From Planctomycetia bacterium (GTDB lineage Bacteria; Planctomycetota; Planctomycetia; Pirellulales; Thermoguttaceae): a stretch of 64,000 bases of DNA. The DNA lies in NCBI GenBank assembly GCA_030527015.1, contig JAUNBR010000009.1, positions 1 through 64,000 on the forward strand. The letters run 5' to 3'. Each line of letters opens with the position of its first letter. The stretch's first letter is position 1. The notes beneath the pieces were generated by a model. It ran no database searches. It had not been told where the DNA came from and saw nothing but the letters and a program-made list of their open reading frames with translations. Below are positions 19,900 through 46,906 of the stretch, piece by piece. The position numbers and the translations under genes are program-made.

Positions 19900-19929
19900 A
19901 TGTATACACAGATAAAACTGCGGTCATTT

Positions 19930-20187: not shown

Positions 20188-20203
20188 ATACTCGTTTTAT
20201 TTT

Positions 20204-21118
20204 TTAATTTTCGATTTTTATTTCCTCTGGCAGAGGTAATTCATATGTAGCAGTACCTGGTTTTTTTTGTAAAGATTCCTGTATTTCCGGAACATGATTC
20301 CCTATTTGTGCAGAAGGATTTATGAATACTGCCTCAGGCGTATCATTCATTTTTTCTGAAACAGGCTCTTTCGTTTCGACGTTCTTTTCTTTCTGAGCAA
20401 AATCTGATTCTGAAATTTCTTTATTATTCATAAAATTTGCTTTTTTGCAGACAGGGAACTCTTCCTCGGAAGCACTTTTATCACCAGGAAAAGGAATCGG
20501 CACATCCAGACCCGCAAGTTTACTCTGTTTATATATTTCTCCATGCTGGATCGGTCCGGCTCCCAGTATCCAGATATTTTTTGCGTTACTTTCTGCTACT
20601 AAATTACCGGACTGCCATAAAGGACGTCCTGTTTTTGCGTGATAAGCAAAAATACCCAGTTTTACCACCGCTTTTTGAGTTGAGTTTTTAGCCAGCGCGA
20701 TTTCCGGAATTACACTTATATTTACAGAAGGAACCTGAAACGGCAGGGAGGTTTCAGGCACACCCCAAAGCACATTATGCTGATCGGTTCCCACAGAACC
20801 CGCTCGTAATTCGACGATATATTCTGCTTTTTCCTTATCATTCTCCACTAAACACCCACTGCTTAAAACATGCTGACGCACTAAACTGATGAGATAATCA
20901 GAATCCGTTACCGCATCCACATATGTCGAATCAATAAAAACCGACTTTCCTGCCAAAACAGTAAAATCAGCTTGGGACACTGCCCGGTCCATGGCGTCTG
21001 AAAGAATGAGCTGTTCCGTGGCAGTCCGTGCAGTTCCAGTCGATTTTGTGGAGCCACATCCCAAAATAAAACCAAAATAGAAAAAAAACATTAATAAAAT
21101 TTGTATCTTACACCACAT
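20204..21118 (-). CDS. Putative outer-membrane lipoprotein (DUF6655-like)
   Basis: The N-terminus MWCKIQILLMFFFYFGFILG followed by CGS is a lipoprotein signal with the lipidated Cys at position 21. The mature part starts GSTKSTGTARTATEQLILSD, a segment I associate with a planctomycete lipoprotein family (DUF6655), though this is from memory. Residues about 40-195 look like a compact domain (FIDSTYVDAVTDSDYLISLV, VELRAGSVGTDQHN, LGIFAYHAKTGRPLW). The final ~90 residues are charged and probably disordered. No biochemical role can be assigned. Confidence 0.65.
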   Translation of the reverse strand: MWCKIQILLMFFFYFGFILGCGSTKSTGTARTATEQLILSDAMDRAVSQADFTVLAGKSVFIDSTYVDAVTDSDYLISLVRQHVLSSGCLVENDKEKAEYIVELRAGSVGTDQHNVLWGVPETSLPFQVPSVNISVIPEIALAKNSTQKAVVKLGIFAYHAKTGRPLWQSGNLVAESNAKNIWILGAGPIQHGEIYKQSKLAGLDVPIPFPGDKSASEEEFPVCKKANFMNNKEISESDFAQKEKNVETKEPVSEKMNDTPEAVFINPSAQIGNHVPEIQESLQKKPGTATYELPLPEEIKIEN

Positions 21119-24802: not shown

Positions 24803-27800
24803 TTACTTATTCTTTCTCCATTTTCCAGTGGAAAGGAGAAAATCGATTGCCGACAAATCTTCATTCGTTACGGTATTACCCTGCCCGACAAGAAGATCCG
24901 CCGCCTCTTTATCCGAATTATCAGAACGGGAAGTTTCTGGCTGCAACAAGTCATTTTCCACCAATTCACTCACCACGGCATCCGTAATTTGTGCGGCATT
25001 AGGCACCGCAAGAGAACCGCTCGTATCCACACTCTGGAAACTGTAAACGGACATGGCATATTTATTATTAACCATTCTCGTATACGCAGGCGAAAACAGC
25101 AGATCACTGTCCGTATTTGTGTCGACAAGATAAGCACTATCATTTCCACCGGTGGTAGAGTATACGGAAGTGGTTTTAAATCCACTGGCATAATTATAAA
25201 ACTTCTCATTAAACAGATGCACCGTATTCTGCTTCGTATAAAGGTTATCATCATTTTCCGAATCATAAATTCGCGCCTGGTCATTTCCTCCATTAATACT
25301 ATAAGTACTGATGTTACGGAAACCACTTACAAGAATCGAATAACCCGCTCCATACATATGAGCAGAATATGGATTCATCACCAGAATGTCATCTCCTTCC
25401 GAATCATATAAAGCCACCGTGGCCGTTCCCTGATCTGCCTGATTTACCGCGATATTTGTAAATCCGAACACACTCAGAGTAACCGTTTCACCATCAGCGG
25501 TACGCGTTTCCCGAATCACACTGTTCGGCAAAACAGTAAAGGTATCATCACCACCAGTACCACGGACAGTCGCCTGCCGGCCACCATTTCCGTAAATATT
25601 AGCTTGCGCGAAACCTCCTGTCAGCTGATGATGATAATCCGAACCTTCCAGAGAAATATCATATCCTGTCACCTCCACACGATCTTCCGACGAACTGCCG
25701 AAAACTTCCAGACTCACGTCTTTCTGTTTATTCTCCGTCTGAATTTCGCTAAAGTCATACAGATACGTTACCGACCGACCTTTCGCATTTACCACCTCAA
25801 GATTCCGTCCCGTGAGGATTAATTGATCTCCCTGCTGAATGGAATCCATTACTGCCAAATCATTACCGCCCTGTGAAGCATATACCGTTACCATGGCCTG
25901 CGACATATCCAGACCTGTAACTTCCGTATCGTATGCTTTTTCGCGATTCGCGACCGTTTTTTCCGTCATCTGAACCGTCCGAATTCCATCAGAATTCACT
26001 TCGTCCTGATAAAGATCATCCCGATAAGATCCGTACAGCTGGACAGCGTCCGCGCCACCATTTCCATCAGCGGTTATCGACGTGAAATTTCTCACCACGA
26101 CACTTAAATTATAATCCTGCAAAATAAAGTATCCTTCCGTCGGCCAAATAAGCATGTTCTCCACGCCCTCTGTTCCTACGAAATGGAAGGAATCCTTACC
26201 TGTCAGAGCATCTATCGTTACCATCCGGTACTGTGAAATGTCATACCTCGTGGAAATTCCATTCATATTCACGACAAAATGAGTGCCTTCTTCCGAAATC
26301 TCAAAAGTAACCACATCTCCACCTGTCGTCTGCTCCAGACCCAGCAGTTCCAGAACTTCAGAATCATTAGAAGGCAGCCTTCCGATCGTTACCGCATAAT
26401 CCTCCACTTCACCTGTCGCACAATAACCCGTGGGAGATAAACCACCCTCGGCACTCAGACGGAAACGTGCATACGATTTTCCGCTGAACGCAGTCTTCGG
26501 CACCGCGACGGTTATCGTATTTTCTCCATTCACTACAGTGTAAGAAGTTAAAATCTGATCACCCGCATCCAGCCAATTTCCATTTCCGTTAAAGTCGATC
26601 CATGCATCCAGCTTCGCAGACTCCACATCCTGCGGTAAAGTAACATTTACCTTAAACGTGGCGGTCATTCCTGGTATCAGAAGGAAATTATCCGGGAAAA
26701 TAACACCATCTTCATCATTCGTAATTAACGTATTATCTCCGTCCGCATTCACCGAAGGACGTCCGTCCGTGTCCGCGTCAATTTTTGTTCCCAGTAAATA
26801 ACCTGAATTCGCATTATGACGCGCACCATTATCATTTAATAACGTCGGGTACGGTGCCGGCGTATCACCGAAGTCCATATTCCCATCATCATTAAGAATC
26901 ACTATCGTGGCTTCATCCTGACGAATAATTACATTTCCATCTCCGACTTCCTGAATCAGCAGTTTAAAGATTTCATCTTCCTCGATTTCATAGTCGCCGT
27001 AAATGACTAGCTTAATCGTCTCAACAATTTTTGGAGTCTCTTTCGTGGCAATATAAATCTGATACGCACCAGAATTCGTATCACTGCCACGCCAGACAAT
27101 CATATCTTCCGAGATTAACGGACTACTGTCATTTTTGTCGTCCTGCGTAATATTCAGCGCGATCGCGCCGGTCTGAATATCATAAAAATACACATCCCAG
27201 ACAGAAATTCCTTCCTTCACCAGAGATTCTGTTTCTCCACGCCACGCGATATAATTTCCCATAATCACCGGCGCATCATCATGATATACACTGTTACTGA
27301 TATTTACCACGCCGGCATTCTCACTATTAGTATCATAGTAGAAAATATCCCATGACCCCGTCAGTGCATCTCGGCCCCGCCAGCAGATAATCCCATCTGA
27401 AACCTGTGGTACTAAATTCGTACCACCAGCAGTCGGAACTCGCACGGGAGCTTCCTGCCCAATCATATAATAATATATATCTCTTTGGGTATTCGTCCCA
27501 CTTTCGTAAACGATCACTCCATTCGAAATCTGAGGATTCGACTCATCCTGCGTCGCGGCAGGATTCACTGCTCCAGAACGAGTACCATCATAATACCAGA
27601 CTCGTGTGGAATCATTCACAGTGGAACGTACTGTCCACACCGCCTGCGCCACTCCCGCTTCATTCGTGTTTATTCGTATGGAATCTACCAAAATTTCATA
27701 ACCTGGAGTATAATAATACACCGTTACGACATTCGCCAGCGGATCACCATTCAGATCCGCCATCTTTAATTCACTGCGTCCCTGCGAAGAATTAATAACC

Positions 27801-30800
27801 TCCTCCCAAATCACAGTCGTTCCGGAAATACGCGGATTAATACACTGACGTTCCGCGCTGTCCGTAACACGCACCGTTCGATTCGTCTCCAGATTATAGG
27901 CGAATAACTGATACCTCCCGTTTTCCACCGTGGACCAGATCGCCCAGTCTCCGTCTATATCCGCGTAATTATCTTCCACCGCATTATCCGTACACCAGAT
28001 AACCGCTCCCACTGAATGATCATACACATAAATTTCATCATCATTTCCATCATTACTGACGTAAATAATGCGATTACCCGATATACGCGCATCATAATTA
28101 TTTTGATTCAGCGTATTCGTTAATTGCGTAATCGTCCATGGCGTGGCCGGCGTTCCCTGAGGTGTCGTGATAAACTGATAAATACCACTCTGCTGCCGAT
28201 AATCCGCATAAATGGGAATCTCTTCATCTTCACCCACGACATATGAAGAACCATCCTTATTCAGCAGGGTAACACCCGCTGCGTAATAACCCACGATTTC
28301 GCCCGCCTCACCGCCAAGAGCCTGTCCTGCATATATCGGTTCCGTGGTTATATTTCCAGCTTCGTCGACACGATACCCCAAAATCTCACCCGAGGCGATC
28401 AGAGCATCCGATGTTCCATACGAGAAGGCATACTCACCACCGAAAGAGCCTGTCAGCTCCACATCCACTTCTACGATCGTTTCTCCCTCATTTCCTTCCG
28501 TAATCGTCGTATCCACGATTCGGATCTCACCTTTCCGGAACGCTCCAAAATCGACTCCCGAAACCTTATCCTTTCCATTCTCCCCACTTTCATTACCTTC
28601 CAGGAACACGACATAATGAGCAGGCCGATCTGCGGAAGCAGGATTCGTATACGACGTAATAATTTCCATCGCGCCATTCAGGCCAGAAAGATTCACGTCA
28701 TAAAGTATCGTCGCGCTCACCGTCTGAGTGGCCGCCGTGGGACCGATTTCGATCACGCCATTTACAATTTTTGCACTCAGCGCAAAAGCATTATTTCCGG
28801 CTTTCATCGCAACGATTACTTTTTCCATCACATCTAAAGGAGCATCCATCTGACTGTTAAACCCGATCGGAATTCCCAGACCAGAAGCCGCCATACCTAA
28901 CGATTCATCCACAAACTGGAATGTAATCGGACTCAGTACTCCATCTTTGAGCTGCGTAATGGTAAAGGTGGAATTATGCTGGATGCTCTCCACATCCGAA
29001 ATCTGAAAACGCATCGTCCCGTCACCGAGAAGTGTCGTCGTACGATTCGGAGCAGTCGCCACCCATAAATCGCCCTGCAGCTCTTCCATATAAACGATAT
29101 ATTCGCCGGCGAACAGATCCGTAAATTCAAAATACCCCATTTCGTCCGTAACAGTTAATGGGTTATCCATCCAAGGATGCGTATAAACTTTCTCACCATT
29201 CGAATATTCCAGACAGATGCGAATATCATAATTATAATATCTCTGAGTAGCCGGGTCATACACATCATACTGCGTCATCCCGGGTTCCAGTCCGCCAGGC
29301 ATTCCTGTACTGTTGTCGAAACGATAAGTATAAACATTTCTTTCCAAGAATTGTGCACTCTGAGCCTCTGTCAGCGCAGATCGCACCACCACCGGCGCGG
29401 CATTCGCTCCAAAGAACCCTGCCACCGCCGCGGTACCAACCGAACTTTCTTCATCTTCGCCCACCGTGCCAAAACCATTCACGCCGTCCGCACATGTCCA
29501 CTGGATTTTATCATACCGCATGGCCATGATACTGCCGTCCGGATGATTTTCGATATACAGAACATACGTATTCGTCGCCGAAGCGCTTCCTCCACTGGCC
29601 GCGACATCATTCCAAATAATCTGTATATACGCATTTCCTTCATCCGTAAAGCCTTTATCATAAGAAACCATTCCATTCGTCCGCGTGTCATTATCAGACC
29701 AGAACACCGCAATCATCGGTACATTCGGATCCTCCTTACTGACCGGCTGTGTGTCTCCAAAGTAAACATAACCATCCGTATGAATCGTAAGGGAAGAATA
29801 GGTCGTGCCGAAATAATTCAGGTTAAATCCCAGCGGGACTCTCTGATAAATCCCGTCTCCCTTCGTTAATCGGGAAGTCGTACTGAATGACGGCTGAACG
29901 AACGTAAACTGAGGCACCGAAGTATACGGCTGCATATCCCACTGACCATTTTTATTCAGGTCATTAAAGACATAACCGCTGATGACCGCGTCTCCCAGCT
30001 CGATCTTCACTTTATAATCTTCCACTTCACCAAAAGAACCAGCCTCCGGATCATTTTCATCGATCCGACCAGATCCGACCGGACCCGTCGGAAGCACTCT
30101 TTCACTGCTTAGACGGAACCTGGCATAAGTTTCGCCTGCCTCCAGATTCTCTGGCACCGGAACGGTAAAGGTAACGACTTTTCCTGCTCCTCCGTCCACA
30201 AAATAACCTGGAATATCTTCATTCGTCGTGGGTTTCGCCACCTCCAAATTATCGCATCCTTCGTAAATAATTATTTCTTCCGGATCAAAAACTCCATTCC
30301 GATTATAGTCGATCCAGCCTGTCAGGTATCCCGCACCGGTAACCGTTACATCTATCATCGCATTCCTGCCAGGCACGATCCGTTCTACAAAAACCACTCC
30401 ATTTTCATCATTATAATATCCACTCAGATCATCACCCTGCGCCGTATCCGTGGGCAGACCATTCATTTCCGCGTCCACTCCCGAATATCGAACATCACCG
30501 GTATCTTTCCCTAAATACAGGTCATAATTCAGTGCGATATAATGCCACGCACCATTCGCTGCCTGATTCGTACCATAAGTATTCGGGGCGTCTCCAAAAT
30601 CTTTTGGATCACTCGTGCTGAAAATCTGATAATCTTCGATTTCTCCATCCTGCGCGAGAGAACATGGATCATTAATCCTCTCCGAACTAATCCGGAATCG
30701 GATATACGTCTCGAAATCTTCCGTGTCTTCTGGTAATTTATATTCCGCGGTAATTTCATGGATTCCATCTTCCCGCACAACATGATTATTAATAATGCAT

Positions 30801-33800
30801 ACCCATTCCCAGCCGTCATCCTCCGTTTTCATAACCATCCACGCAGAAATGTATGCCTGCGTCGCTCCGTTAAGATTCACTTCCGCATTCACCTTAAAAT
30901 CAGAACCAGGAATGAGCATGCCCAAAATGATTCCATTTTCATCATTTCTTCCTGAATTATCATCATCACCCTTCGCATCATTCGACCACTGCGGCTGACG
31001 ATCCACATCCGGACGAATCGCGCCAAAATATGGCCCCACGAAATTCCCGTCCGCGTCATACGTCACGATATGCCGACCTGAGGTCTTCGGATCCTGCCCA
31101 TCATAAATTGCAGGCATGTCACCATAATCGAAATAATTATTTACCAGACGCACTTCATAATCTTCCACTTCTCCGTCATCCGCCGCGCCGCTAAAGTCGA
31201 TTCCCGCTTCCGCCGCAGTAACACTCGTCAGACGGAACCGGAACTGTGAACTGTAAAACGCATCCGGATCATTCCGATCAAAACCTTCTGGAAGCGTAAT
31301 GTTCGTCAGGTCTACGAAAATCCGATTTTCACCCGACTTCACCTGAAGATCTCGTAAAACGTAATCTCCATCATTATCCCATACCCCATCACCATTCACA
31401 TCCAGCCAGGCATTCAAATAACCCACATAACCATCCGCATCCTGATAAGATTCGCCAGCGGTTACGTTCACCGTGATTTCCGTTATTTCGCCAAGCTTTA
31501 ACTGATAATCATTATAAATTGTAACCCCGTCATCAAAAGTATCCGTATCATTTTCTCTGGCATCCAACTCAGCAGAGACGTTCTGCCCCAGCTGGAACCC
31601 CGGCACAATAATATGCCGTGCGCCATCATTTTCCTCCAGCGTCGGATACGTCGGATCCGGCGCATCTCCAAAATCATATCCCGACAGTCGAATCCAGAAC
31701 TGCGTCGTTCCCTGGAACATACCGCCCTGCTCCTGATTTCCATTCGGACGATTCGCCTGTAACAAATTCCCCGCCAGGTCTGTAATGCTCGCAGGATCTT
31801 CCGAATTGTTCGAGACAATAATCTGATAACGGTAACCCTGCTTCCACACGCCCGTCACCGGATACAGATGAATCACATTATTCAGGCTGTCATAATCAAA
31901 AACGTAATCGATCGTATTCGACAGAAGAATCGCTTCTTCGGGATTATACGTATTCGAATTAGGCCACAGATATACCTGCACCGAGGACGCCAGTACCGAC
32001 GAATCCTGAATGCCCGTGCCATTATCCAGTAACTGAATACTGAAAACGGACATCGGTTCACTGACCACCAGCGCGTCTCCACGTAATGGATCGATATCAC
32101 TGCCCACGTACGTCGAATTTCCACGATTATCCAGCGGCATTACCAGCTCCGCAGTCGGACCCTCAAAATCGACTCGGTCGATCGCTCCGATGTCCTTAAA
32201 GGAAGTAACACCACCGCCTACATAATAATTATTATTCGGATCATCCGTTCGTCGCTGACCATACATGTCAAGATCCGGCGCGATAATCGGCGACTCCTCG
32301 ATTCCAAGCATCCGCTTTAAATTCACGAATGCCGCACGATCCGGTAAACTGTCTCTGGCCGCGTCTATAATCTTTGATTCCATGGCCGGATAAAAGTTTA
32401 ACTCGCCCGGATTCACGAAAACGCGTTCTTCATCATCAATAATAATAGCGCGATCTCCCACCGTGCCGATGTCCACATTCTGATGAAATGCGTTATGCCC
32501 GACCACCGTCGTCGCACGTGAAGTCGCGTCAATCGAAATCGCCACATCCGTATTCGCCACGACGTTATTTAATAAAGTTGGCGCACTGTTCGGACCAACC
32601 AAAATTCCGATTACCTCACCTTCCTCCGACGTTCCGCCATAAATGGTATTATTTGCCACGTGTGCGAAGAGACGCGCACCGCCAAAAAATGCATCCGCTG
32701 AATTATCACCCTCAAATGAAATGCCCGCCTGATTCGAATACGCGATCACATTATTAATAATCGCGACTCCATTCACCAGACGATCCGCGTTCGTCTGCAC
32801 CAGTGTGGCAGAAACGCCCGGATGCGGATAATTCTCTTCCATATCTCGTGTGCCAGCAGAGCTAATATTCACTCCGTTTTCCGCCGAATACGCGATCATG
32901 TTCGAATTAATGAAGATCAGTCCCTGCGACGACACCGCATTATTATCTCCATACGCAGTAAAGCCGCCATTTCCAAAATCTCCATTCGCCGCGCCCTGAT
33001 ATGAAACATTCTGTTCGTCTCCGTCATACTGATACATTCGGAAATTCGTCGTTTCCGGATCCCCAAACGTAATCCACGCTCCACCATACAGATCCACGCC
33101 GCCTTTACCGCCGTCTCCATTTAATGTCGCCTGAACGTCAAACGTAAATAAATATCCCTCACCATAAATGCGATTTGCACGATTCACCGCATCCACCAGC
33201 AGGGCGGCCATTTCCAGCTTCGACTCCGAACCCGTGTAAATCACAGGGATCGCGCCAGCCGCCGTAAACATTACCCTCGGATCCGACGCGCTGGGAACCA
33301 AAAGCCCTTCCGTGTCCGCCAAATCTGCTAAAATCATCTGGAACTGAATTTCATTGTCACCGTCCCCGATAATTATCCGTTCCAAATGATGAATCGCATT
33401 TCCCTGCGGACACAGCAGCGTTAATTCCCGAGTCAGACGAGAATTCGTGTCCAGAGAACGCGCAATTTGCAGAACGCCTCCCTGCGACACGCCATATTCT
33501 GTACCCGGACGAATCTGCAGCTGATAACTGCCCTCCGTCACCGCAGGCGCACCCACGGTTACGAAATCATACCAAGATCCCACACCCGCCGGAAGTGCCT
33601 GATTCGGCTCCGTGGCCGTATACATCGTACCGCGTTCATAAAAACCGAGAATGAAATCATCCAGATAAATACCCTCACCGGAATTATTTCCACCCTGCTG
33701 CGGCAAATCATCAATTCCCGTGTCCGCCTGCAGCCGATGTGTAAATGGTAATGGCCCGCTGGACATCAAAATCCGCGGATTCACGCGTGAACCTATTATA

Positions 33801-36800: not shown

Positions 36801-39800
36801 TCATTCACCGCCCCCGCCTGATCCGGCTGCTGAAGCTCCGCGATAAATGGCTGGAACGTCGTACCATGTCGGGACGTAAAGCTGAAATTATTAATCGCGT
36901 TTATAATATCATTCGCCGTGTGCACATTCGGATTATACGTGATCGTCAGAGCCGACGCACTAAGTACTTCCGTAACCGCATTCCATGTTTCATTATAATT
37001 CACCTGAACATCTGCCAGTGCCGTATTCATCTGGAAAATGACATCCACGCCATTAAAGAATCCACCATGATGATCCATCACATCAAGATCCGGATTATTG
37101 GGATCTGCCTGCACCGGACTCATTCCCGAAATAATAATATTATTATTCTCACCCGGTGAAACCACATTCGTAAACGCCGCGCGACCATTCAGTGTTACCG
37201 TAATATTATCCCCGGCACCCAGACTGGCGATCGTGATCCGATCTCCCACCGTCCGATTATAAATACTCGTCACACCAGCATTATTTATCTCCTCACCCGT
37301 ACGATTCGCATAAGACGCAATCACCTTCCCCTGCAGCTTCGTATTAATTGCTTCTACGATCGCCTCGCCCAAAGCACGATTCGCATCAATATACGCACCC
37401 CCCACCGCACCCACCTGATGCATGGGATCAAAGAAAATCGGAGTATTATCCCCTGTTACGCCATCTCTGCCAATCGCCACGATACCCGGAAGTGTGTTCC
37501 CCACCTCTCCGTTATACTGCACCAACGAAAGCGTGGTATCCCCCGAGAGAGAAATTCCCCACGGCTCGTTGCCCTCCTTATCCTCCCCATCATAATTAGT
37601 ATCCTTATGATAAATCGTAGCCGTTATGCCAAATCCTTCTACACTATTAATCGCAGTGGCAAACGCCGAGGCAAGACTCATGGGAATAGAATCCGTATTA
37701 TCTGGGGCCAAAGCAATATCTATTGCCACTCTTCCCTCCGGCGCCGTGCTATCCTCTAGCCGATCAGAGGTACTATCTACCAACTCAAAAAGAATAAATT
37801 CATTATTTTCCATATTCACAATGGTAAACGTGAAAGGTGGATTTCCCTCTCCAAAATGATTCGCCTGCAGCCATTCAAGGATCCCCATATTCCTATCCGC
37901 CGTCACCACCTGATTCGGAATCATAATCGAAGAATTCGATTCAAATTCAAATACATACGATTCCCCATCCACGTCGATCGCGAATGTATCACCATCCTGC
38001 ACCGCGTTCGGTCCCACAACTCCCCACGGATTCAGTTCTAAATCATAACCCGTGTCGAATTCAAAACTCAAACGATGCTCTTCATTATCCGGATCATCCA
38101 CGTACGAATACACGAAATCAACTCGCGTTCCGTCATGAATGTCACCCGGCGTCAGGAATGTATTCGCATCTCCCCGAACAAATTCCGTATCCGTGGCATC
38201 CGTAAACTGGAATGTCGTAGAAGTGTATAACTGTGCCAGCGGAATCGGATTCGTCGGCAAACGATCCGCATCCACGCCATCCCACGGATAGGGAACCGCT
38301 GTTCCATTATCATTAAACGCCCAAATCAAATTTCTCGTCGGGGCCGTGGCGTCCTGATTCTCAATCTGCGGCGTGCTTCCCACGCCATAAAAACCACGAT
38401 TCGTTCGGATATTCCCCACGGAATTACCAATTCCCGATACCAGTGCATGTATCGTCACGAAATGATTATTTACCTGCACCACATCTTCCGGTTCACCATC
38501 CGGCCACAGTGCGATAAGATTCGTACTGCGATCGTCCAGCGTCGTCGCCGCATTACCAAGATTCAGCTCCTGAAATTCCGGAGGTGTCGCATCTCCCCAC
38601 TCCACATTAGGCATGGCAAAGATCCGCCCATCATTCCGCATGTAAATATCACCATAATAAACACCCGGCAGTACGGCCATGTCCGTCGATACGTCCACTA
38701 AGACTTCACCCGTAAACGGATTCACGGAAAACAGATCGCCCGCAGTCGAGATATACATCGTGACATCTGAAAACGCATACTTTTCCGCCGTAAAACCGAA
38801 AGACGTTTCATGCGAAGTAGGCACATTCGCCTCTTCAGGAGAAGGACTAATATGATCCTCAACAATTCGCGTCACCGACTCTATCGGTTCTATACGTAAC
38901 TGCGTCTGCTGAAGAATTGCCGGCACCATGCCTCCCAGCGCCACCGCCACGTGATATGTTCCCACCGGTAAATACACCGTCCCGATGGTCGCGTCGTCCG
39001 AACCATAACTGCCGTTCTGCAGAGGATTCGACGTATCCGGATACTGCGTATCATCCACCAGTGAAGAAGAATTGCCACCTAAAATCAGCTGTCCCGCTTC
39101 ATTAAAGACCCAAATGTCCACGTCCGGACGCCCCAGGTCATCCGCATAATCGATATCAAATTCCACGGGATAAAGCGTCGCCGCATCCGGCGTTACGCCA
39201 GGTATGTTCTGAATTCCCGTCACTTCCACGCGAAATTCATACCAGTCGACATCATTTTCTCCCGAAACATACCCCGAAACCGTTACCTTCGCCTGATTCG
39301 TCTCCAGCACATTCCCGATATACTGAGCGTTCGCCCGAGTTTCATTATTCCCATTATCTCCAACTTCTGTCGTCAGTGGTGAATTCACAGGAAAACCTTC
39401 CACCGTAATACCATTCATGGCATAACGAATATCACCATATGAAATCATGGAGCCCGGTTTCTGCTGGTCTTCCTGCAGACGCACCTGAATCTGATAACGC
39501 CCGCCCGTCTGACCTCCGTTTATAATATCTTCTTCCGTTATCGGAACCTCGACACCATCCTTCAAAACAGATAACGGTATCTTTTCGCCATTTCCATCAT
39601 AAAGTGTCTCGCCATTCGCGTCCGTTTCATATAACAGATAATCCGGAACATAACTTGACACCCGGAGATAATAAGTATTTTGCGTCGCACTGGTTCCCAA
39701 AGAACCCGGCAGTACGACACGCATTCCGGCATCTTTCGGATTAATCGCATAATAATCACGTGAATCACGCACCCAAACATTATCATTCATGCTCGACTGC

Positions 39801-42800
39801 AGACCCAGTGCACGAAACTCTTCTTTCGATTTTTCCGCCTCATCTTTCCATAACTGTGTCACCTGCATGGCAAGAACATGAGTTACCATTAAATCATCAT
39901 ACGTCAGCAGACCGGGCCCAAGTGTGATTCCCGCTGCCTCACACATACGCTGGAACAGTGCTGGATCATTACGAAGTTTTTCCGCCACATGCTCATTTAG
40001 TGCTTCCGTGCTTTCCGCCAACGCGATTCCAGAAAGAATATTCTCTTCATTCAGAGAATAAATACTCGTCGCCAAAACATTTCCCTGAAAATCAATAATT
40101 TCTATGATCGTATCCAGATTATAATTTGTTTCGTCGACATCCACCCAAATCGTCTGACCCGGAGTGCCACTAAACGAATAAACATCCACATCCGAACGTC
40201 GGTCAGTCTGAACATTTCCATGGATCTCAAAACCCAGTCGGAGATTTTCATCACCAGAGACTAAATTTCCCGCCAGTGCGCCAAGATACTGCGCTTTCGC
40301 CGGCACACCATTCAGCTCCACTCCTCCGGTGGCAAGCTCCGATTCAATCACCGTTTCCATATTCGTGTCATTACTGTACTGAGACAGTACCAGACCACGC
40401 CACTCTCCCGGAAAACTCGAACCAAGACTATTATCCGTGTCTTTAAGCATCTTGCCGTTCAGATCCACTCCCGCGCCCACCGTATCATCAGAAAGCCCCG
40501 TTAAAACCACAGGATAACCAGGCACTCCAATTATCTGAAGTGTGCCACCGATACGATCCATTATATCCACCGGCTGACCCGTCGCCGTAATTCCCGCATT
40601 TTCTCCCTGGAACTTCACCACCAGGCTGCCTTCCGTCGAACTCTGTAACCTTAAGCCGCCGTACGTGTGGAAATTCGGAATCGTAATCTCGTCAAAAACG
40701 ATATGCACGATATCCACATCATCCCATGTGGACTCCGTGGTCAGCGTTTCTGCACGAACTACCATTCCATTCAGCTCATTCCCGGACATTCTATTTTCAC
40801 GCACCAACGGACCAGAATTATCCGAATATTTGTTGAAAATAGGCAGATAACTGTCTTCCGTCGCGGAGTAATATCCTGTCGCACGACCAGTGTCCGTGTT
40901 TAACGCATAAGACATGGCGTTCACATTTATACTGATCACCGCGCCTTCATTATTCAAAAACACATTATTCACAATAATCGGCTGACAATTCGTAATATTA
41001 AACAGCGCATCATTCGAAGGCCCATGCCCTATTCGCTGCCCCGTAATCTCTGTCGCGGCATTATTCTCAAAAACAGAATTCGCCACACGCAAGAACGCCT
41101 GACGTGCTTCAAAAGTATTAAAGTCAAAATACTCACCGCCGAACGCGACCGATCCGCCCGCATACATGAAACGTGCTAAATCAAAATATCCCGCAGAATC
41201 CGGCTGGAAATAAAATCCTCCCCAATTACCGGCCTCTGCCACCACCAACTGCTGATTCGAGTTAGTGTCAAAAACACCTCCGGCACCATAACGATCATCA
41301 TAAATCGAAGTAAAGATAATAGGCTCTGAGGTTTTTCCTTCCGCGATAATATGCGCTCCCGTTTCCGCCTCTATCAGCGCCTGATTCATTTTCAGAATAA
41401 TTCCCGAATCGATATGCAGACCCGCATCCGGCCGAGCTTCATAATGTAAAAATTCATTCGTAAGCGCATGATACCGAGCAATCGCCCCGGTATCCCCCCC
41501 TTCCAGGGTGAGATTTTCATTCAAAATATGGACGATATCATAATCATCAAATCTGGCTGTAACTTCCAGTGTTTGTAGCGATGATCCCGGAAGCGTGTCC
41601 ACCCGAATCATTAAACCGTTCATCGAATTCGTATACGTCGTGGTAACCAACTCTTCTTCCACCAGCTGAGTTTCTGTCGTCGTCAGCCGATTCCAACGAA
41701 TGTTTGGCCCCACACGATTATAATCCTGCGTGTAACGCTCCTCGACGACTTCCGTCGCCTGAGAACTGTCATGGAATGTCGATTCCATAAAACTGTTCGG
41801 ATCCGCAGAAATCACGGCGTTCGAGTTCCGTGTCAGCGTATTAAAGAGCACATTCACACGAGCTTCTTCCATATAAACAGGAGAATACGGTGTCCCGGCC
41901 AGTGCCCCGGAAGAAATCGGCTCTCCGCCTGTATTCACCCGGCCACCACCATACCGCATGTCCGCGAAAGCGACTGTGTTCAGGAAAATTCCCTCATTTT
42001 CCAGAATCGTTCGCGCGATTTTTGACGCATCCTCATTATGCGAATAATCCATTTTATTCCGGAACACCAGACCGCCCCAGTCACCATAACCCGGCGCACT
42101 ATTATTCGGATCCGTCTTTATGGATTCAGGTAATGCGTCATAAGAGCCGATGGAATCATCATTATAAGACGTAAAGTAAACCGGGTGATACGGCGTTCCC
42201 AAAACCTGTAATGACGCCAGGCTCTGGTCAATTCCCGTCATTCGGGAACCCACTTCAATATTCGCCTGCCGTAATTTAATCACCACGCCTTCATCGACGG
42301 TTACATTCACACCGTAAGGCACACAGAGAGTATTTCCATCCGGCAGCGCGTCATTCTGATTTCCCCATCCGATTAAATATGCCTGATTATCCGTCAAATC
42401 ACCATTCTGATTTACCTGCACATTTCCATCATATTCATACGGATTCGCGCGTTCATCAATAAAATCATTCCCATAATTATTCCCCAAAACACGCACCGCC
42501 GCGCCGATCGTGGTTTTCTCACCTTCCACCGTACCAGTTTTCTCAGACGCCAGATTCATGGCCGTATCCAGCGTTTTAACAGTCCGTGCCGTACCCGTGA
42601 CCGTGAGATTTCCATCCTCGCCCGTGACAAATTGCACTTCACGACCCAGCTTATCTACATATACTGTATTCTCCGTGGAACGAACGTCAAACCATGTATT
42701 CGAGATTCCTCCCGCCACACCATCCAGATCCCCATCCAGCAAATTACCATAACGGTCCGTTAAACCTTTCGTCGTATCCGGCATGAAATTCAGACGCAGT

Positions 42801-45800
42801 TCATAATCACCTTCCGTGTTTCCATACATTCCAGAATTCGCGATCGTCGGATCATAATTATCATTTCCCGTGGAACTAATCCCGATATAATACGTCCCGG
42901 CCTCTAACGCCATTTCCATGAATGAATCCTGACTGAAATAATCATCATTCCTCGCGACGATATTTCCATTCGCGTCAAAGAGAATTAAAACCGCGTTCAG
43001 CGAACTGGAGTCATAAAGCCGTTCCGCGACGACTTCTGCGGAAAACTTTCCACTACAATTCAGTGTAAATTTATGTAAATCGATATCCATTCCGTCCAGC
43101 CGGAATAAATACTGACCGTGAATCACATCATAATTTCCAGGAAACGCCGCTTCAGCATTCGACTCATAATAAACATCCCCTGACGTATTTTCGCCTGCAC
43201 CATCCCCCATAATCGTGCCAGCATCTAAATCGTACGTATGACCAAAACCTAAATTATGCATGATTTCATGCATCATCACGGAAGTAAAACCGGTACCAAT
43301 AAAACCATCTTCCGAAGTACCAAAATCTGCCGCATCCAGAACAGCAGCTCCACCGCCGCCAAGACCTGCCACCGAACCGGGACCACTCGTGCCACCCAGC
43401 ATGGCTAAATCACCCACACAGATCACTAAATCACAGGCCGGAGACGTGCCGTCCGCAAAATTCTCCACCTCTCTAAACTGGATTCCCATCCGCTGAGAAA
43501 TCATCGCCAGAATCTGACGCGCACCGTCCTTCTGCGCTTCCGAAATAACATTATCGAAACCATTATACTCATTCGGGAAGTTATATGACCACAGCGTAAT
43601 TCCAGGTTCCTGATCCGACGGATTTTCATCCACATCCGGATAATCCCACCCGGTAATATGCTGCTCTGAATCTAACGCCGTATCATTCGTCGGATGCAGC
43701 CTGTGCCCCGGTTCATCATTTCCACCAGGCCACACCAGATCATACACCTGATTTACGCCTGCAAGACGCCCATTATTCGGCGAAATCTGACCCTGAATCA
43801 CCAGCGTCTGACCATTTCCATCCAAAACCCGATTTCCAAATTCCGACAGTCCCTTCTGCTGACGCTCCACATTTTCGAACTGCGCCTGAAGTGCTACAAA
43901 TTCCGCCTGTTTTTCTGCAAGAGTTTCCCGAAGCACTTCAATTTCTGCATTATCAGGATCCACCCTTTCAAAAAATTCAATTATTCTTTCCAGATCAATA
44001 ATTTCCGCTTCCTTCGCCAGGATATAAAAATCTTGCTGAGACACCTCTTTCGCAGTCGCGAAAGAATCATCCCCTGCCGTTTCTTGCACCGCCACTTCCA
44101 GCACATCATATCCACGTATCACCTCTCCGATACGTAAACGGAAAGATCCCTGACCATCTTCTATAACTTTATCTGTCTCCTCATCCGTTTCTTTAAACAG
44201 ATTCGCCAAATCGTCCGCAAAAAAGAGTGTCGCCTTCCCTACACGCGTTTTCTCATCAAAAACATATGACACGCGAACCGGCGTTACATATTTATCATCC
44301 GTCGTCGTGGCCGTATCTCGCGTATAAATTAAACTGAAAAATTCAGGTGCCAGCGCATCATACTCATTTCCTGCACCATCCTGTGCTTTATATGTTTCCA
44401 GTGCATCATTATTAAAGTACACATCCACCCGGTCACGATACTGAATGATATTTCCCTCCGCATCCGAAACCGTCGGCTGCGGCACTACCGTGGTAATATA
44501 CGGCGCTAATTCCAATTCAAAATGAAACGCTTCGTCCCGGCCAGGTGCGTCAAATTCCTCCGCGCCATACGGCACTCCGACAGTGTTCTGTAACACCACA
44601 TCTTCCGCACTAAGCGCGTTTCCATGAATCCGGATTTCATAATGATCATCCACCAGCGTTTCCGCAAAACGAATAATCACTTCATTCGAATTATCTCCCA
44701 CTCCGATATATCCGATCGGAACCTGATACTCATATGTCAGACTTTCTTCTATATTTTCTGAGGCCTCAAAATCCGACAATTCATGCATATTCCCCGTGCG
44801 CCATACCGTAATCGCGCTGAGAGTTTCTGGATCGATCGCCTGCCCTAAACTAAAGCGCAGAGTCAGCTCCGTCGGCGCAGCTTCCACCGTGTCTCCCGAC
44901 TCGATGACTTTTCCCGTACTGGGAATAACCGCACTTAAAGAAGGCCCACCACTTACTCCTTCCACTCCATGAATCGATAAAGACCAGTCTGTAAATGTTC
45001 CCGTACCGCCCGTGGCCAAATCCCGAACAGTTAACTGCCAATCACCGCCAGATTCCTCACCCCAACAAAACGTGGAACTAAACGTCCATTCATTATAACC
45101 AAAAGATTCCATCCCCATAAATGCCGCCATCTGCGTGTCATGCAGCTCTGCCAGTACCGACTCCGTACCAGAAGGCGAAATCAAAACGACTTCCAAATCT
45201 CCCGTTACCGTATGTGGAATATTCACCTTCACTTCCACCCGCTCCACAAACTGAATATAATTCGGCATACTAATCGTGGAGCTTACCCCCTGCGTGCTGC
45301 TGTCTGGAATACGCTGATTCACCGCCACCGTACCAGAATGAATGGAACCCATGGGCAAAACATTCGTCCATTCCTGAGCTGCTTTCACCGCCGCGGCCGC
45401 ATCTATTAAACCAAAACCATATTTATGATTCACCCAGTTTCCTGCACCATTCCGCTTCCAACCAGCGTCATCCGGATCATTCTTCACCGCGGTCTGCTGC
45501 AAAATATACTGCACATCTCGATATGTCAGAGCAGGATTCGCTTCCAGCATCAGCGCGATGACTCCCGAAACGATCGGTGCCGCGGCGGAGGTCCCGCCAA
45601 AATCATTCGTATAATTCGCATCTTCATAATTCTCCGCGGAATTACCGTCATTATATCCCGCCGTACCCGTTCTGTCTGTGGTGGTAATCCCGATCTCCAC
45701 CGCATCCGTGGCATCACTTGACGGTGCCGAAATAAACAGCGCAGCTCCCGGTGTGGAATAATAAGTCTGTTTTCCATCCGGCCCGACAGCCGCGACACCA

Positions 45801-46906
45801 ATTACATGAATATTATTTACCAGACCATCCTGGTTCACGTTTCCGCCCGTCTCTAAATCATTACCACCAGCGACGACATAAATAACGCCCTTACCATTCC
45901 GGCCTTCCGTCACTCCTGCTTCGATCGCCGCCTGAGCCAGCGGACCGATTCCTTCCGGAATACCCACGCGCGGACCGATCGGCCCCCAACTATTACTGGA
46001 AATGTCGATCTGATCGATATGACTGCCCAGCGCAAGTGCCGTGGTGAAATCCGTCATATTCTCACCCAGCAGACGTACTGCCACCAGATTCGCGTCAAAA
46101 GCGGAGCCTACACCACCAACTTCATTATTATTTCCCAGTGCAGCACCCGCCACCGCCGTACCATGCATATCCTCGTCCGTCTTCGGTGAAGGATTCGTAT
46201 TATCTTCGTCATAATCATAACTTAATGCAGCCAAATAATGTGCCCGTAAATCCTCGTGTGTGAAATCCACACCGTCATCCACGATCGCGATCGTCACCCC
46301 GGCACCCGTGGCTAAATCCCATGCCTCCACAATATTAATATCAGTCGTACCACCCTCAAAACCAAGAATTTCTCCGTCATTTTCTAAATGCCACTGTTCC
46401 TCAAAAAGTGGGTCGGCGGGCACATAACGTGTGGTATACTCCGTAATCGTTAATGGATAATAAAACGCTAAATCTTCCAGGGTACCTAGACGCGCCGCCG
46501 CTTCACGCCAACTGGTATTCGTGGAAAACTCCCATACATACGTCCCTTCCACGAAACCTGTCGACCCGCGCTGATCGGCTCCTATAAGATCCGCCATTTT
46601 TAGTGAATCCACGCCGTCTTTTACCCCGACGACCCACGAATCCACATTCGCCAACTTCTCCTCAGAATACCGCGTCAGATCAGAGGCTTCCTGCAGCGCG
46701 TTCTCCTGATTATATGCCCACAACAGATCCTTATACTCGATCGTGGACGGAGTCACACTTAACAGAACACGCTCCTCACACTGTTCCAGATGTAAACCAC
46801 GTGGCGTCCCCGCTTCAGGACGGCTCTTCGAAGCCTGCCCATATGATCCACGATTCTTCTTCAGAATGGCTGCAGAAAAGCGATACAACTTGTTCCAAAT
46901 ACCCAT
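24803..46906 (-). CDS. Giant multidomain surface protein with subtilisin and metzincin-like sites
   Basis: A 7,367-aa protein with AAGGAG 7 nt before ATG 46906. The N-terminus lacks a standard signal peptide but has LEQCEERVLLS (40-50), the planctomycete LExRxLLS-type element. Subtilase domain: VDDGVDF (D210), DMHGTAVAG (H248), GGTSAAAP (S440). A P-domain follows (about 550-650). At 1213-1223 HEIMHNLGFGH is a metzincin zinc motif. PPC-type beta domains (about 1270-1360, 2225-2285), right-handed beta-helix segments (about 1950-1985, 4720-4795), a dockerin-like GDVDGDSDFDTQDA (about 4119), GEVED/DFGDAP modules (about 5075-5650 and 6834), an SdrD-type region, a Calx-beta stretch (about 6130) and a beta-propeller-like part (about 6260-6635) come next. 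It is probably a secreted adhesin or protease; the exact function is unknown. Confidence 0.9.
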   Translation of the reverse strand: MGIWNKLYRFSAAILKKNRGSYGQASKSRPEAGTPRGLHLEQCEERVLLSVTPSTIEYKDLLWAYNQENALQEASDLTRYSEEKLANVDSWVVGVKDGVDSLKMADLIGADQRGSTGFVEGTYVWEFSTNTSWREAAARLGTLEDLAFYYPLTITEYTTRYVPADPLFEEQWHLENDGEILGFEGGTTDINIVEAWDLATGAGVTIAIVDDGVDFTHEDLRAHYLAALSYDYDEDNTNPSPKTDEDMHGTAVAGAALGNNNEVGGVGSAFDANLVAVRLLGENMTDFTTALALGSHIDQIDISSNSWGPIGPRVGIPEGIGPLAQAAIEAGVTEGRNGKGVIYVVAGGNDLETGGNVNQDGLVNNIHVIGVAAVGPDGKQTYYSTPGAALFISAPSSDATDAVEIGITTTDRTGTAGYNDGNSAENYEDANYTNDFGGTSAAAPIVSGVIALMLEANPALTYRDVQYILQQTAVKNDPDDAGWKRNGAGNWVNHKYGFGLIDAAAAVKAAQEWTNVLPMGSIHSGTVAVNQRIPDSSTQGVSSTISMPNYIQFVERVEVKVNIPHTVTGDLEVVLISPSGTESVLAELHDTQMAAFMGMESFGYNEWTFSSTFCWGEESGGDWQLTVRDLATGGTGTFTDWSLSIHGVEGVSGGPSLSAVIPSTGKVIESGDTVEAAPTELTLRFSLGQAIDPETLSAITVWRTGNMHELSDFEASENIEESLTYEYQVPIGYIGVGDNSNEVIIRFAETLVDDHYEIRIHGNALSAEDVVLQNTVGVPYGAEEFDAPGRDEAFHFELELAPYITTVVPQPTVSDAEGNIIQYRDRVDVYFNNDALETYKAQDGAGNEYDALAPEFFSLIYTRDTATTTDDKYVTPVRVSYVFDEKTRVGKATLFFADDLANLFKETDEETDKVIEDGQGSFRLRIGEVIRGYDVLEVAVQETAGDDSFATAKEVSQQDFYILAKEAEIIDLERIIEFFERVDPDNAEIEVLRETLAEKQAEFVALQAQFENVERQQKGLSEFGNRVLDGNGQTLVIQGQISPNNGRLAGVNQVYDLVWPGGNDEPGHRLHPTNDTALDSEQHITGWDYPDVDENPSDQEPGITLWSYNFPNEYNGFDNVISEAQKDGARQILAMISQRMGIQFREVENFADGTSPACDLVICVGDLAMLGGTSGPGSVAGLGGGGAAVLDAADFGTSEDGFIGTGFTSVMMHEIMHNLGFGHTYDLDAGTIMGDGAGENTSGDVYYESNAEAAFPGNYDVIHGQYLFRLDGMDIDLHKFTLNCSGKFSAEVVAERLYDSSSLNAVLILFDANGNIVARNDDYFSQDSFMEMALEAGTYYIGISSTGNDNYDPTIANSGMYGNTEGDYELRLNFMPDTTKGLTDRYGNLLDGDLDGVAGGISNTWFDVRSTENTVYVDKLGREVQFVTGEDGNLTVTGTARTVKTLDTAMNLASEKTGTVEGEKTTIGAAVRVLGNNYGNDFIDERANPYEYDGNVQVNQNGDLTDNQAYLIGWGNQNDALPDGNTLCVPYGVNVTVDEGVVIKLRQANIEVGSRMTGIDQSLASLQVLGTPYHPVYFTSYNDDSIGSYDALPESIKTDPNNSAPGYGDWGGLVFRNKMDYSHNEDASKIARTILENEGIFLNTVAFADMRYGGGRVNTGGEPISSGALAGTPYSPVYMEEARVNVLFNTLTRNSNAVISADPNSFMESTFHDSSQATEVVEERYTQDYNRVGPNIRWNRLTTTETQLVEEELVTTTYTNSMNGLMIRVDTLPGSSLQTLEVTARFDDYDIVHILNENLTLEGGDTGAIARYHALTNEFLHYEARPDAGLHIDSGIILKMNQALIEAETGAHIIAEGKTSEPIIFTSIYDDRYGAGGVFDTNSNQQLVVAEAGNWGGFYFQPDSAGYFDLARFMYAGGSVAFGGEYFDFNTFEARQAFLRVANSVFENNAATEITGQRIGHGPSNDALFNITNCQPIIVNNVFLNNEGAVISINVNAMSYALNTDTGRATGYYSATEDSYLPIFNKYSDNSGPLVRENRMSGNELNGMVVRAETLTTESTWDDVDIVHIVFDEITIPNFHTYGGLRLQSSTEGSLVVKFQGENAGITATGQPVDIMDRIGGTLQIIGVPGYPVVLTGLSDDTVGAGVDLNGKMLKDTDNSLGSSFPGEWRGLVLSQYSNDTNMETVIESELATGGVELNGVPAKAQYLGALAGNLVSGDENLRLGFEIHGNVQTDRRSDVDVYSFSGTPGQTIWVDVDETNYNLDTIIEIIDFQGNVLATSIYSLNEENILSGIALAESTEALNEHVAEKLRNDPALFQRMCEAAGITLGPGLLTYDDLMVTHVLAMQVTQLWKDEAEKSKEEFRALGLQSSMNDNVWVRDSRDYYAINPKDAGMRVVLPGSLGTSATQNTYYLRVSSYVPDYLLYETDANGETLYDGNGEKIPLSVLKDGVEVPITEEDIINGGQTGGRYQIQVRLQEDQQKPGSMISYGDIRYAMNGITVEGFPVNSPLTTEVGDNGNNETRANAQYIGNVLETNQAKVTVSGYVSGENDVDWYEFRVEVTGIQNIPGVTPDAATLYPVEFDIDYADDLGRPDVDIWVFNEAGQLILGGNSSSLVDDTQYPDTSNPLQNGSYGSDDATIGTVYLPVGTYHVAVALGGMVPAILQQTQLRIEPIESVTRIVEDHISPSPEEANVPTSHETSFGFTAEKYAFSDVTMYISTAGDLFSVNPFTGEVLVDVSTDMAVLPGVYYGDIYMRNDGRIFAMPNVEWGDATPPEFQELNLGNAATTLDDRSTNLIALWPDGEPEDVVQVNNHFVTIHALVSGIGNSVGNIRTNRGFYGVGSTPQIENQDATAPTRNLIWAFNDNGTAVPYPWDGVDADRLPTNPIPLAQLYTSTTFQFTDATDTEFVRGDANTFLTPGDIHDGTRVDFVYSYVDDPDNEEHRLSFEFDTGYDLELNPWGVVGPNAVQDGDTFAIDVDGESYVFEFESNSSIMIPNQVVTADRNMGILEWLQANHFGEGNPPFTFTIVNMENNEFILFELVDSTSDRLEDSTAPEGRVAIDIALAPDNTDSIPMSLASAFATAINSVEGFGITATIYHKDTNYDGEDKEGNEPWGISLSGDTTLSLVQYNGEVGNTLPGIVAIGRDGVTGDNTPIFFDPMHQVGAVGGAYIDANRALGEAIVEAINTKLQGKVIASYANRTGEEINNAGVTSIYNRTVGDRITIASLGAGDNITVTLNGRAAFTNVVSPGENNNIIISGMSPVQADPNNPDLDVMDHHGGFFNGVDVIFQMNTALADVQVNYNETWNAVTEVLSASALTITYNPNVHTANDIINAINNFSFTSRHGTTFQPFIAELQQPDQAGAVNDGSGLLALGAGHTVTLGGGHRGTKGLTYRQDYRHDGTLATDGVILPEAYRILITAEMTGAEISKAFNAAIHATEAEPYNNFYTSILDGENVVLMPGDNWTDVNVIGIEITQRHADSIRHEGEGPGGEITGMAWLHGGEDDDELYAVCNAGGLYRVIGLPDEAVSVRVNDYNYAPVDEEGEYRTIEQVRNTIRLEFIADLGINFSSLSNGPQTVEEGLYSNFLFATDNAGNIYCFDTEGNFQNVFYNGQSSISTGLDVVTGITFSNIDFNLWHETTERETTAGHGFTQTYTGSHEDTAGGTSWRYGLDPNAGMQIFEDAGANNAANNRILVNYRGTNADALNTYETPGGSNGSLLTEEFSLVGYSAEDKPVLTFNYYLDTDDADALDSFRVYITSTDPAWKNHFAPEDVTVAENGLDAQLGTPSWNLIASSDMAIGNIQENNGMFRQIAIDMSAYAGMNNLQLRFIFNTSDSVGVGHFQSEGDWLYALPGYQLSSGDTFSISSAVNAFSVGDIQDFELMLGYRMLLPGSAGASIAEGDWFRMEDRFGNQADFYFVKYNTEIPDGASGNAVPIRITDNMTSVEVADEIRDAIRRAVVVDGIIRGVTADDVTEDDTIVDEQNVCISGAYNLELHMTSQGELPEDLALIESVDGQARVDSTGTIALDSVDRLQFVGFRFIEEEGGAEAWTEVDFLNGEANPYEFSVADRYGSVVNFRLFSIQERIVNPLEPDVVPIIFGNFPRMDAGNDIQGNRVPGDVDGDSDFDTQDAMTIIAMVIQEQIDAGILRGLEVYATGDSVMIKAANWVHSEEGPREDVFVGHTWKSGGYTQLNPSAFPVRFAGIVENETGGMEFTELTYGASKEHVAQAIALAMENCFNSIQVPVEAWQTNDKISFNGVEYVIQEEGQTATAGGDEVIHVTAGATDYEIAVQVRDALLENNSLMFDVLDRGEQGVFLIYTHYTIYPVDTDVQLTTTIGAEETVYTLNRLGTYTASKIKVGEDDKVNIIGSRVNPRILMSSGPLPFTHRLQADTGIDDLPQQGGNNSGEGIYLDDFILGFYERGTMYTATEPNQALPAGVGSWYDFVTVGAPAVTEGSYQLQIRPGTEYGVSQGGVLQIARSLDTNSRLTRELTLLCPQGNAIHHLERIIIGDGDNEIQFQMILADLADTEGLLVPSASDPRVMFTAAGAIPVIYTGSESKLEMAALLVDAVNRANRIYGEGYLFTFDVQATLNGDGGKGGVDLYGGAWITFGDPETTNFRMYQYDGDEQNVSYQGAANGDFGNGGFTAYGDNNAVSSQGLIFINSNMIAYSAENGVNISSAGTRDMEENYPHPGVSATLVQTNADRLVNGVAIINNVIAYSNQAGISFEGDNSADAFFGGARLFAHVANNTIYGGTSEEGEVIGILVGPNSAPTLLNNVVANTDVAISIDATSRATTVVGHNAFHQNVDIGTVGDRAIIIDDEERVFVNPGELNFYPAMESKIIDAARDSLPDRAAFVNLKRMLGIEESPIIAPDLDMYGQRRTDDPNNNYYVGGGVTSFKDIGAIDRVDFEGPTAELVMPLDNRGNSTYVGSDIDPLRGDALVVSEPMSVFSIQLLDNGTGIQDSSVLASSVQVYLWPNSNTYNPEEAILLSNTIDYVFDYDSLNNVIHLYPVTGVWKQGYRYQIIVSNNSEDPASITDLAGNLLQANRPNGNQEQGGMFQGTTQFWIRLSGYDFGDAPDPTYPTLEENDGARHIIVPGFQLGQNVSAELDARENDTDTFDDGVTIYNDYQLKLGEITEITVNVTAGESYQDADGYVGYLNAWLDVNGDGVWDNDGDYVLRDLQVKSGENRIFVDLTNITLPEGFDRNDPDAFYSSQFRFRLTSVTAAEAGIDFSGAADDGEVEDYEVRLVNNYFDYGDMPAIYDGQDPKTSGRHIVTYDADGNFVGPYFGAIRPDVDRQPQWSNDAKGDDDNSGRNDENGIILGMLIPGSDFKVNAEVNLNGATQAYISAWMVMKTEDDGWEWVCIINNHVVREDGIHEITAEYKLPEDTEDFETYIRFRISSERINDPCSLAQDGEIEDYQIFSTSDPKDFGDAPNTYGTNQAANGAWHYIALNYDLYLGKDTGDVRYSGVDAEMNGLPTDTAQGDDLSGYYNDENGVVFVERIVPGRNAMIDVTVTGAGYLTGWIDYNRNGVFDPEEIIIYEGCDNLEVAKPTTNEDIPGYFVDGGAGKVVTFTVPVPENLEAGETYARFRLSSERVLPTGPVGSGRIDENDPEAGSFGEVEDYKVKIELGDAVISGYVFNDLNKNGQWDMQPYTSVPQFTFVQPSFSTTSRLTKGDGIYQRVPLGFNLNYFGTTYSSLTIHTDGYVYFGDTQPVSKEDPNVPMIAVFWSDNDTRTNGMVSYDKGFTDEGNAYIQIIWNDVAASGGSASATNTYVLYIENHPDGSIMAMRYDKIQWTCADGVNGFGTVGEDEESSVGTAAVAGFFGANAAPVVVRSALTEAQSAQFLERNVYTYRFDNSTGMPGGLEPGMTQYDVYDPATQRYYNYDIRICLEYSNGEKVYTHPWMDNPLTVTDEMGYFEFTDLFAGEYIVYMEELQGDLWVATAPNRTTTLLGDGTMRFQISDVESIQHNSTFTITQLKDGVLSPITFQFVDESLGMAASGLGIPIGFNSQMDAPLDVMEKVIVAMKAGNNAFALSAKIVNGVIEIGPTAATQTVSATILYDVNLSGLNGAMEIITSYTNPASADRPAHYVVFLEGNESGENGKDKVSGVDFGAFRKGEIRIVDTTITEGNEGETIVEVDVELTGSFGGEYAFSYGTSDALIASGEILGYRVDEAGNITTEPIYAGQALGGEAGEIVGYYAAGVTLLNKDGSSYVVGEDEEIPIYADYRQQSGIYQFITTPQGTPATPWTITQLTNTLNQNNYDARISGNRIIYVSNDGNDDEIYVYDHSVGAVIWCTDNAVEDNYADIDGDWAIWSTVENGRYQLFAYNLETNRTVRVTDSAERQCINPRISGTTVIWEEVINSSQGRSELKMADLNGDPLANVVTVYYYTPGYEILVDSIRINTNEAGVAQAVWTVRSTVNDSTRVWYYDGTRSGAVNPAATQDESNPQISNGVIVYESGTNTQRDIYYYMIGQEAPVRVPTAGGTNLVPQVSDGIICWRGRDALTGSWDIFYYDTNSENAGVVNISNSVYHDDAPVIMGNYIAWRGETESLVKEGISVWDVYFYDIQTGAIALNITQDDKNDSSPLISEDMIVWRGSDTNSGAYQIYIATKETPKIVETIKLVIYGDYEIEEDEIFKLLIQEVGDGNVIIRQDEATIVILNDDGNMDFGDTPAPYPTLLNDNGARHNANSGYLLGTKIDADTDGRPSVNADGDNTLITNDEDGVIFPDNFLLIPGMTATFKVNVTLPQDVESAKLDAWIDFNGNGNWLDAGDQILTSYTVVNGENTITVAVPKTAFSGKSYARFRLSAEGGLSPTGYCATGEVEDYAVTIGRLPSNDSEVLELLGLEQTTGGDVVTFEISEEGTHFVVNMNGISTRYDISQYRMVTIDALTGKDSFHFVGTEGVENMLIWPTEGYFILQDYNLSVVVRNFTSITADGNGGADAVQLYGSYRDDLYQDEVNSDGIRTVQMTEKTVANREKAYDTEVTGLDMSQAMVTVYASQGGNDLAVMDSIQQGDQLILTGRNLEVVNAKGRSVTYLYDFSEIQTENKQKDVSLEVFGSSSEDRVEVTGYDISLEGSDYHHQLTGGFAQANIYGNGGRQATVRGTGGDDTFTVLPNSVIRETRTADGETVTLSVFGFTNIAVNQADQGTATVALYDSEGDDILVMNPYSAHMYGAGYSILVSGFRNISTYSINGGNDQARIYDSENDDNLYTKQNTVHLFNEKFYNYASGFKTTSVYSTTGGNDSAYLVDTNTDSDLLFSPAYTRMVNNKYAMSVYSFQSVDTSGSLAVPNAAQITDAVVSELVENDLLQPETSRSDNSDKEAADLLVGQGNTVTNEDLSAIDFLLSTGKWRKNK

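Follow-up and report, generated by a model that had tools for sequence, protein, structure and literature searches.

Planctomycetes are typified by their giant surface proteins, few of which, to our knowledge, have a known function. The LExR-type export motif is reportedly the motif of Studholme 2004. Outside the giants, kexin/furin-type proteases with an S8 domain and a P-domain are found in bacteria as well, and ASP of Aeromonas sobria is such a protease. Giant planctomycete genes have been described already (PMC11573180 and PMC5177795). According to PMC8567305, RRLxxExLExRxLLA is a planctomycete extracellular motif; in Tuwongella immobilis it occurs in 8 of the 10 longest proteins, which the authors judged likely to be surface exposed, and of the 20 motif proteins that were detected, 8 were found only in the SDS fraction. 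The giant protein described here has its size class, adhesion-type repeats and phylum in common with these LExR-motif giants, and its N-terminus carries a motif that resembles theirs. However, the accessible parts of PMC5177795 and PMC8567305 describe neither a metzincin-core family nor an exchangeable protease head. A limited literature search (LEPR-XLL, planctomycete giants, kexin or matrixin fusions) found no description of this metzincin-core family or of its exchangeable heads either. The parts of the giant are familiar; what is new is their arrangement and the turnover of the head.

We analysed a window of 64,000 nucleotides, that is, bases 1-64000 of its contig, from an assembly of 3.84 Mb in 132 contigs. 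A first, sequence-only reading of this stretch had reported one uninterrupted frame of 7,367 residues at 24803-46906 and had left its strand unstated. The frame is indeed open for 7,367 codons and lies on the minus strand (46906 -> 24803), as do all the features of the giant given below. Blast alignment showed that relatives from other genera match it in blocks of about 25-50% identity from residue 1 to about residue 7363, and the N-terminal start MGIWNxxxRFS...LExxExRxLLS is kept across the aligned orthologs. Because the relatives from other genera align over nearly the full length and the start is conserved, the giant frame is a real gene. The same near-whole-length alignment rules out a chance frame. 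It could still be suspected that the giant is a chimera private to its lineage, or an assembly artefact of one genome, since we searched seven genomes of the same genus and found no such giant gene in them. However, other genera carry the same fusion as one open frame, as do independent assemblies, and one of its carriers, G030, is a single-contig genome. The orthologs in other genera refute a private or artefactual origin, and we give it practically no credence.

The first protease is located in the N-terminal head. The Peptidase S8 domain (residues 201-499; 45410..46306) was found with Pfam at an E-value of 1.2e-41. The triad D210, H248 and S440 lies exactly where the sequence-only reading had put it and is complete in each of the 16 aligned members; N349 is the oxyanion Asn. 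The S8 domain is followed by a P-domain (residues 554-644; 44975..45247; Pfam P_proprotein, PF01483, 2.6e-22), which the earlier reading had missed and which places the first protease as kexin/furin-type. The nearest solved structures by sequence are Kex2 (1.8e-72) and furin (5.4e-70). An AlphaFold2 model was made for residues 121-1320, and its confidence is mostly high over the S8 domain and the P-domain. In the structural comparison, this part of the model came closest to furin, with a Z of 49.7 and an rmsd of 2.0 over 451 residues; Kex2 reaches a Z of 48.4, and the P-domain falls inside the furin/Kex2 match. Because a P-domain follows the S8 domain and the closest sequence and model matches are Kex2 and furin, the N-terminal protease is, by sequence and predicted fold, a kexin/furin-type S8 + P-domain unit. 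The head resembles the kexin/furin proteases (Kex2, furin, ASP) in sequence, triad, P-domain and predicted fold, but in the giant the S8+P unit is fused to a giant stalk. Free-standing S8+P proteins that lack the giant core are widespread, and occur in Poseidoniales archaea, Cyanobacteria, Verrucomicrobia, Desulfobacterales and others.

In furin, the basic groups are bound by Asp258 and Asp306 in S1 and by Glu236 and Asp264 in S4 (PMC8453481). Our alignment placed furin E236, D258 and D306 at T289, G311 and D360 of the giant, so one of the three acids is kept and two of these furin-type S1/S4 acids are absent from the S8 head. All three are retained in most free-standing homologs and in some giants (G010, G018, G112). 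Because the equivalents of E236 and D258 are T289 and G311, dibasic cleavage by the S8 head of the giant seems unlikely. The head is therefore named kexin-like and not proprotein convertase, as just one of the three S1/S4 acids is kept.

A propeptide-like segment (residues 68-161; 46424..46705) precedes the S8 domain, with the junction ...TTR160-YVPADPLF. The segment is conserved among free-standing kexin-like homologs, and the matches of many of them begin at residues 68-70 of the giant. We compared the pocket with the propeptide junction in 95 kexin-like homologs. Lys or Arg was found at the junction in 71 of the 74 rows that have the acidic S1 pair and in 9 of the 21 rows that lack it (Fisher p 1.8e-7). 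This association contains only 2 to 5 phylogenetically independent contrasts, and thus we treat the covariation of pocket and junction as a lead and not as a result. The head of the giant retains R160 at the junction and has lost the pocket. The propeptide-like segment and R160 are in keeping with an S8 head that activates itself in the ordinary way.

It may be supposed that the giant processes itself, in that the S8 head, the metzincin or both would cut it after export and free the head or fragments of the stalk. The propeptide-like segment, which has R160 where the junction is expected, agrees with this idea, and a basic junction that tracks the acidic S1 pocket is what would be expected for propeptide autocleavage. 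However, the junction evidence covers ordinary propeptide removal only and does not extend to a cut that would part the head from the stalk, the pocket/junction association lacks phylogenetic support with its 2 to 5 independent pairs, and two of the pocket acids are gone from the giant's own head. We consider self-processing of this kind rather improbable.

The second protease is predicted to be a metzincin domain of the matrixin-like type (residues 1050-1262; 43121..43759). The zinc motif HEIMHNLGFGH occupies residues 1213-1223 (43238..43270), precisely as first read, and the Met-turn GTIMGDG (residues 1230-1236; 43199..43219) contains M1233, which is invariant in the alignment. The M10 metzincins MMP-12 and karilysin share HExxHxxGxxH and the Met-turn with this domain, whereas the domain of the giant is embedded about 1,050 residues into the protein. 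Taken alone, the giant's metzincin stays under the curated Pfam cut-offs (Reprolysin_3, 20.5 bits; M10, 14.9 bits), and in the comparison with the relatives it scores 20.1 against a cut-off of 24. All of the 28 aligned family members match Peptidase_M10 at E<=0.01. The profile of 28 relatives, searched against solved structures, matched MMP-12 (1.9e-8) and karilysin (1.6e-5), with the match to matrixins covering the C-terminal half of the domain. This profile supports a metzincin, probably of the matrixin type, as the second protease. Structure prediction had been proposed as the check on both folds; the S8+P module came out furin-like as described above, and the metzincin model, which was built on 6 sequences, has a low mean pLDDT of 38.9. 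That the giant carries two proteases, each with a complete active site, is supported, and other genera of the family have kept the pair.

The catalytic motif is intact in 64 of the 79 metzincins sampled, including that of the giant. Its Gly is replaced by Ala in G083-G085. The full zinc motif has been lost in the other 15, among them the S8P-headed G012 and G017 (10,025 aa). Because these 15 lack the full motif, catalysis by the metzincin is, judging from the motif, dispensable in some family members. Such losses would also suit a giant in which both proteases are vestigial or structural, namely an adhesin or matrix protein that uses enzyme domains as binding folds, and adhesion-type modules make up most of the giant. 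However, an S8 triad that is intact in 16 of 16 members and a metzincin motif that is intact in 64 of 79 are not maintainable by drift. We therefore regard a purely structural role as very unlikely.

The head and the conserved core join at about residue 654, and the core family consists from there on of Ig-like, metzincin, PPC, beta-helix and GEVED modules. The first core domain (residues 654-955; 44042..44947) is Ig-like according to the strands predicted in the model. It is linked to the metzincin by a helical hairpin (residues 949-1029; 43820..44062), which appears in the model as long helices. This charged hairpin is apparently private to the giant, and the blast blocks to the relatives break at about this place. 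A beta sandwich of the PPC/collagen-binding-like type (residues 1275-1387; 42746..43084) was found just under the cut-off of the NCBIfam model DVUA0089, and Foldseek matched its low-confidence model to PPC 5sv5 and to the ColG CBD. The beta-helix-like region (residues 1504-2290; 40037..42397) is the best conserved part of the core, with about 35-50% identity in relatives, and ends in a Pfam PPC match (residues 2239-2287, 6.2e-8).

Pfam found GEVED (1.4e-41) in four stretches in the C-terminal third. They include an array at residues 5078-5640 (29987..31675) and the last GEVED domain at residues 6766-6840 (26387..26611), which is the best GEVED stretch. A NIDO-like domain lies at residues 5705-5852 (29351..29794; Pfam 5.5e-9). 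Two Calx-beta-like halves (residues 6126-6170 and 6633-6675; 26893..28531) surround propeller repeats at about residues 6235-6600. Both module types gave sub-cut-off matches (Calx-beta, E 0.059; TIGR04275, 44 bits against a cut-off of 85). The Calx-beta-like domain (residues 6126-6675) appears to be split by the inserted propeller repeats, and this region is conserved in relatives. The Pfam domains of the giant are Peptidase_S8, P_proprotein, PPC, GEVED and NIDO. From the list of modules in the sequence-only reading, PPC and GEVED were recovered with Pfam, while Calx-beta and the propeller repeats remained below the cut-offs.

We explored the distribution of this core in other genomes. A scan of genome contigs with the single protein gave no match, and an alignment-based scan recovered the relatives. 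Searching with the metzincin segment gave matches in 172 of the 396 genomes sampled from the order; within the family to which the giant's genome belongs, 32 of 119 were positive. The frames of the core family are mostly several thousand residues long and reach 11,105 aa. Named contigs on which the two-protease arrangement is complete come from MAGs of Pirellulales; one of these is labelled Thermogutta sp., another Blastopirellula. By these sequence searches, the core of the giant is a widespread Pirellulales giant-protein family. The module order had been called unusual; this is true of the N-terminal head only, because from about residue 654 on the order is common to widespread Pirellulales giants.

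The slot between the export motif and residue ~654 holds different heads in different relatives. Within the giant's own family, the S8+P head occupies it in 19 frames, the giant included. A Vps10/BNR-like propeller is found there in G011, G069, G070 and G071. G022 has a reprolysin-like M12 metzincin at this place, and a second giant from the same genome has an S8 domain that lacks the P-domain. A propeptide with a gingipain-like C25 peptidase (1.6e-64) fills the slot of the relative G034, not that of the giant itself. The slot is empty in G060, G061, G062 and G139. In the headless relatives, and as a rule in other families, the export-type motif is followed at once by the domain whose start here is residue 654. 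Some members of other families (G285, G317, G363, G373, G377, G386 and G226) have a second HExxH-type domain in the slot.

A core tree was built on residues 654-1320. One fully supported clade of 11 mixes S8P, C25, M12 and empty slots, and in genus g28 the C25-headed G034 groups with the headless G061 and G062 in one starred clade. A single fusion followed by vertical descent of head and core was rejected, because forcing the S8P-headed cores into one clade gave an AU p of 5.7e-10, which is to be read as indicative since the S8P group was chosen after the tree was seen. The tree of the S8P heads is poorly resolved and is compatible with one capture or several. Because the core tree mixes the heads and an S8P-headed clade is rejected, the heads have, according to these trees, changed repeatedly, by gain, loss or replacement. 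No detached head was found beside the headless giants in the stretches checked.

The export-signal-like motif RGLHLEQCEERVLLS (residues 36-50; 46757..46801), which was located in the ortholog alignment, is preceded by the conserved start MGIWNxxxRFS. When compared by eye with RRLxxExLExRxLLA, it matches 7 of the 10 fixed positions, and it is conserved in the orthologs. The model PF07595 (Planc_extracel) found no match in the first 100 residues of the giant at E<=5; thus formal membership in PF07595 is not claimed, and this is a further difference from the described LExR-motif giants. Judging from the N-terminal motif, the giant is probably exported. At the other end, the tail VTNEDLSAIDFLLSTGKW (residues 7346-7363; 24818..24871) resembles xVDFLxxxGxW of relatives, and C-termini of this kind were seen in G012, G020, G022, G030, G033 and G034. 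The conserved tail may have a role in anchoring. Surface display with two proteases is our best reading of the giant.

We also inspected the neighbourhood of the gene. Immediately downstream lies a gene of the same orientation (21917-24241, minus strand) for a DUF11/CARDB protein that weakly resembles the Chlamydia cysteine-rich outer membrane protein 6. A GH57 amylase-type gene (17503-19821, plus strand) lies near the giant, and one with 51% identity lies near the giant of G030 in a different relative orientation. GH57 was the only conserved neighbour of the giant that is shared, and it is shared near one relative; therefore no operon partner is claimed. A complete-looking Cas12a of 1,288 aa is encoded at the contig edge (window 158-4024, plus strand). 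One repeat-like TTTCTACTCGAGTAGAT follows cas12a at window 4232-4248, and seven Cas12a-type repeats form an array on another contig (C63:41246-41716). Direct repeats of 46 bp, 93% identical, flank cas12a at 2-47 and 4788-4833, and could delimit a piece of DNA that is mobile or has been duplicated. A second giant frame of the same genome (3,777 aa; L220, on C37 around 19452-20591) shares the C-terminal repeat type (8e-15).

Taking these results together, we think it fairly probable that the protein is an exported or surface giant of the LExR-signal type, with a conserved metzincin core and an exchangeable head, which is here a kexin/furin-like S8+P unit. Export would proceed via the N-terminal motif. 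The S8 head would fold with its propeptide (residues 68-161), which would be removed near R160, and the P-domain would stabilise the head. The beta-rich core could keep both proteases off the cell or anchor them in the envelope, and the S8 head and the metzincin might jointly cleave extracellular or envelope proteins. The degradation of prey or polymers, which had been suggested at first, is a speculative role.

A broader proposal concerns the Pirellulales giants as a whole. They may form a modular display, in which the metzincin stalk is conserved, export is constant, and the effector at the N-terminus is swapped from one lineage to another; this effector would be a protease (kexin-like, gingipain-like, M12-like or another S8 enzyme) or a Vps10/BNR propeller. 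We put this forward tentatively, as a possibility to which we would give somewhat less than even chances. By analogy, the head and core of the giants would resemble polymorphic toxin systems, which carry a variable effector on a conserved trafficking scaffold (PMC3482391). However, the variable part of the giants is N-terminal, and what they carry as heads are proteases of the extracellular type or a propeller.

Recognition of the family turns the giant into testable enzymes of ordinary size, with heads of about 600 aa and a metzincin of about 210 aa. The family also offers a natural experiment, in which one stalk carries different heads in comparable genera.
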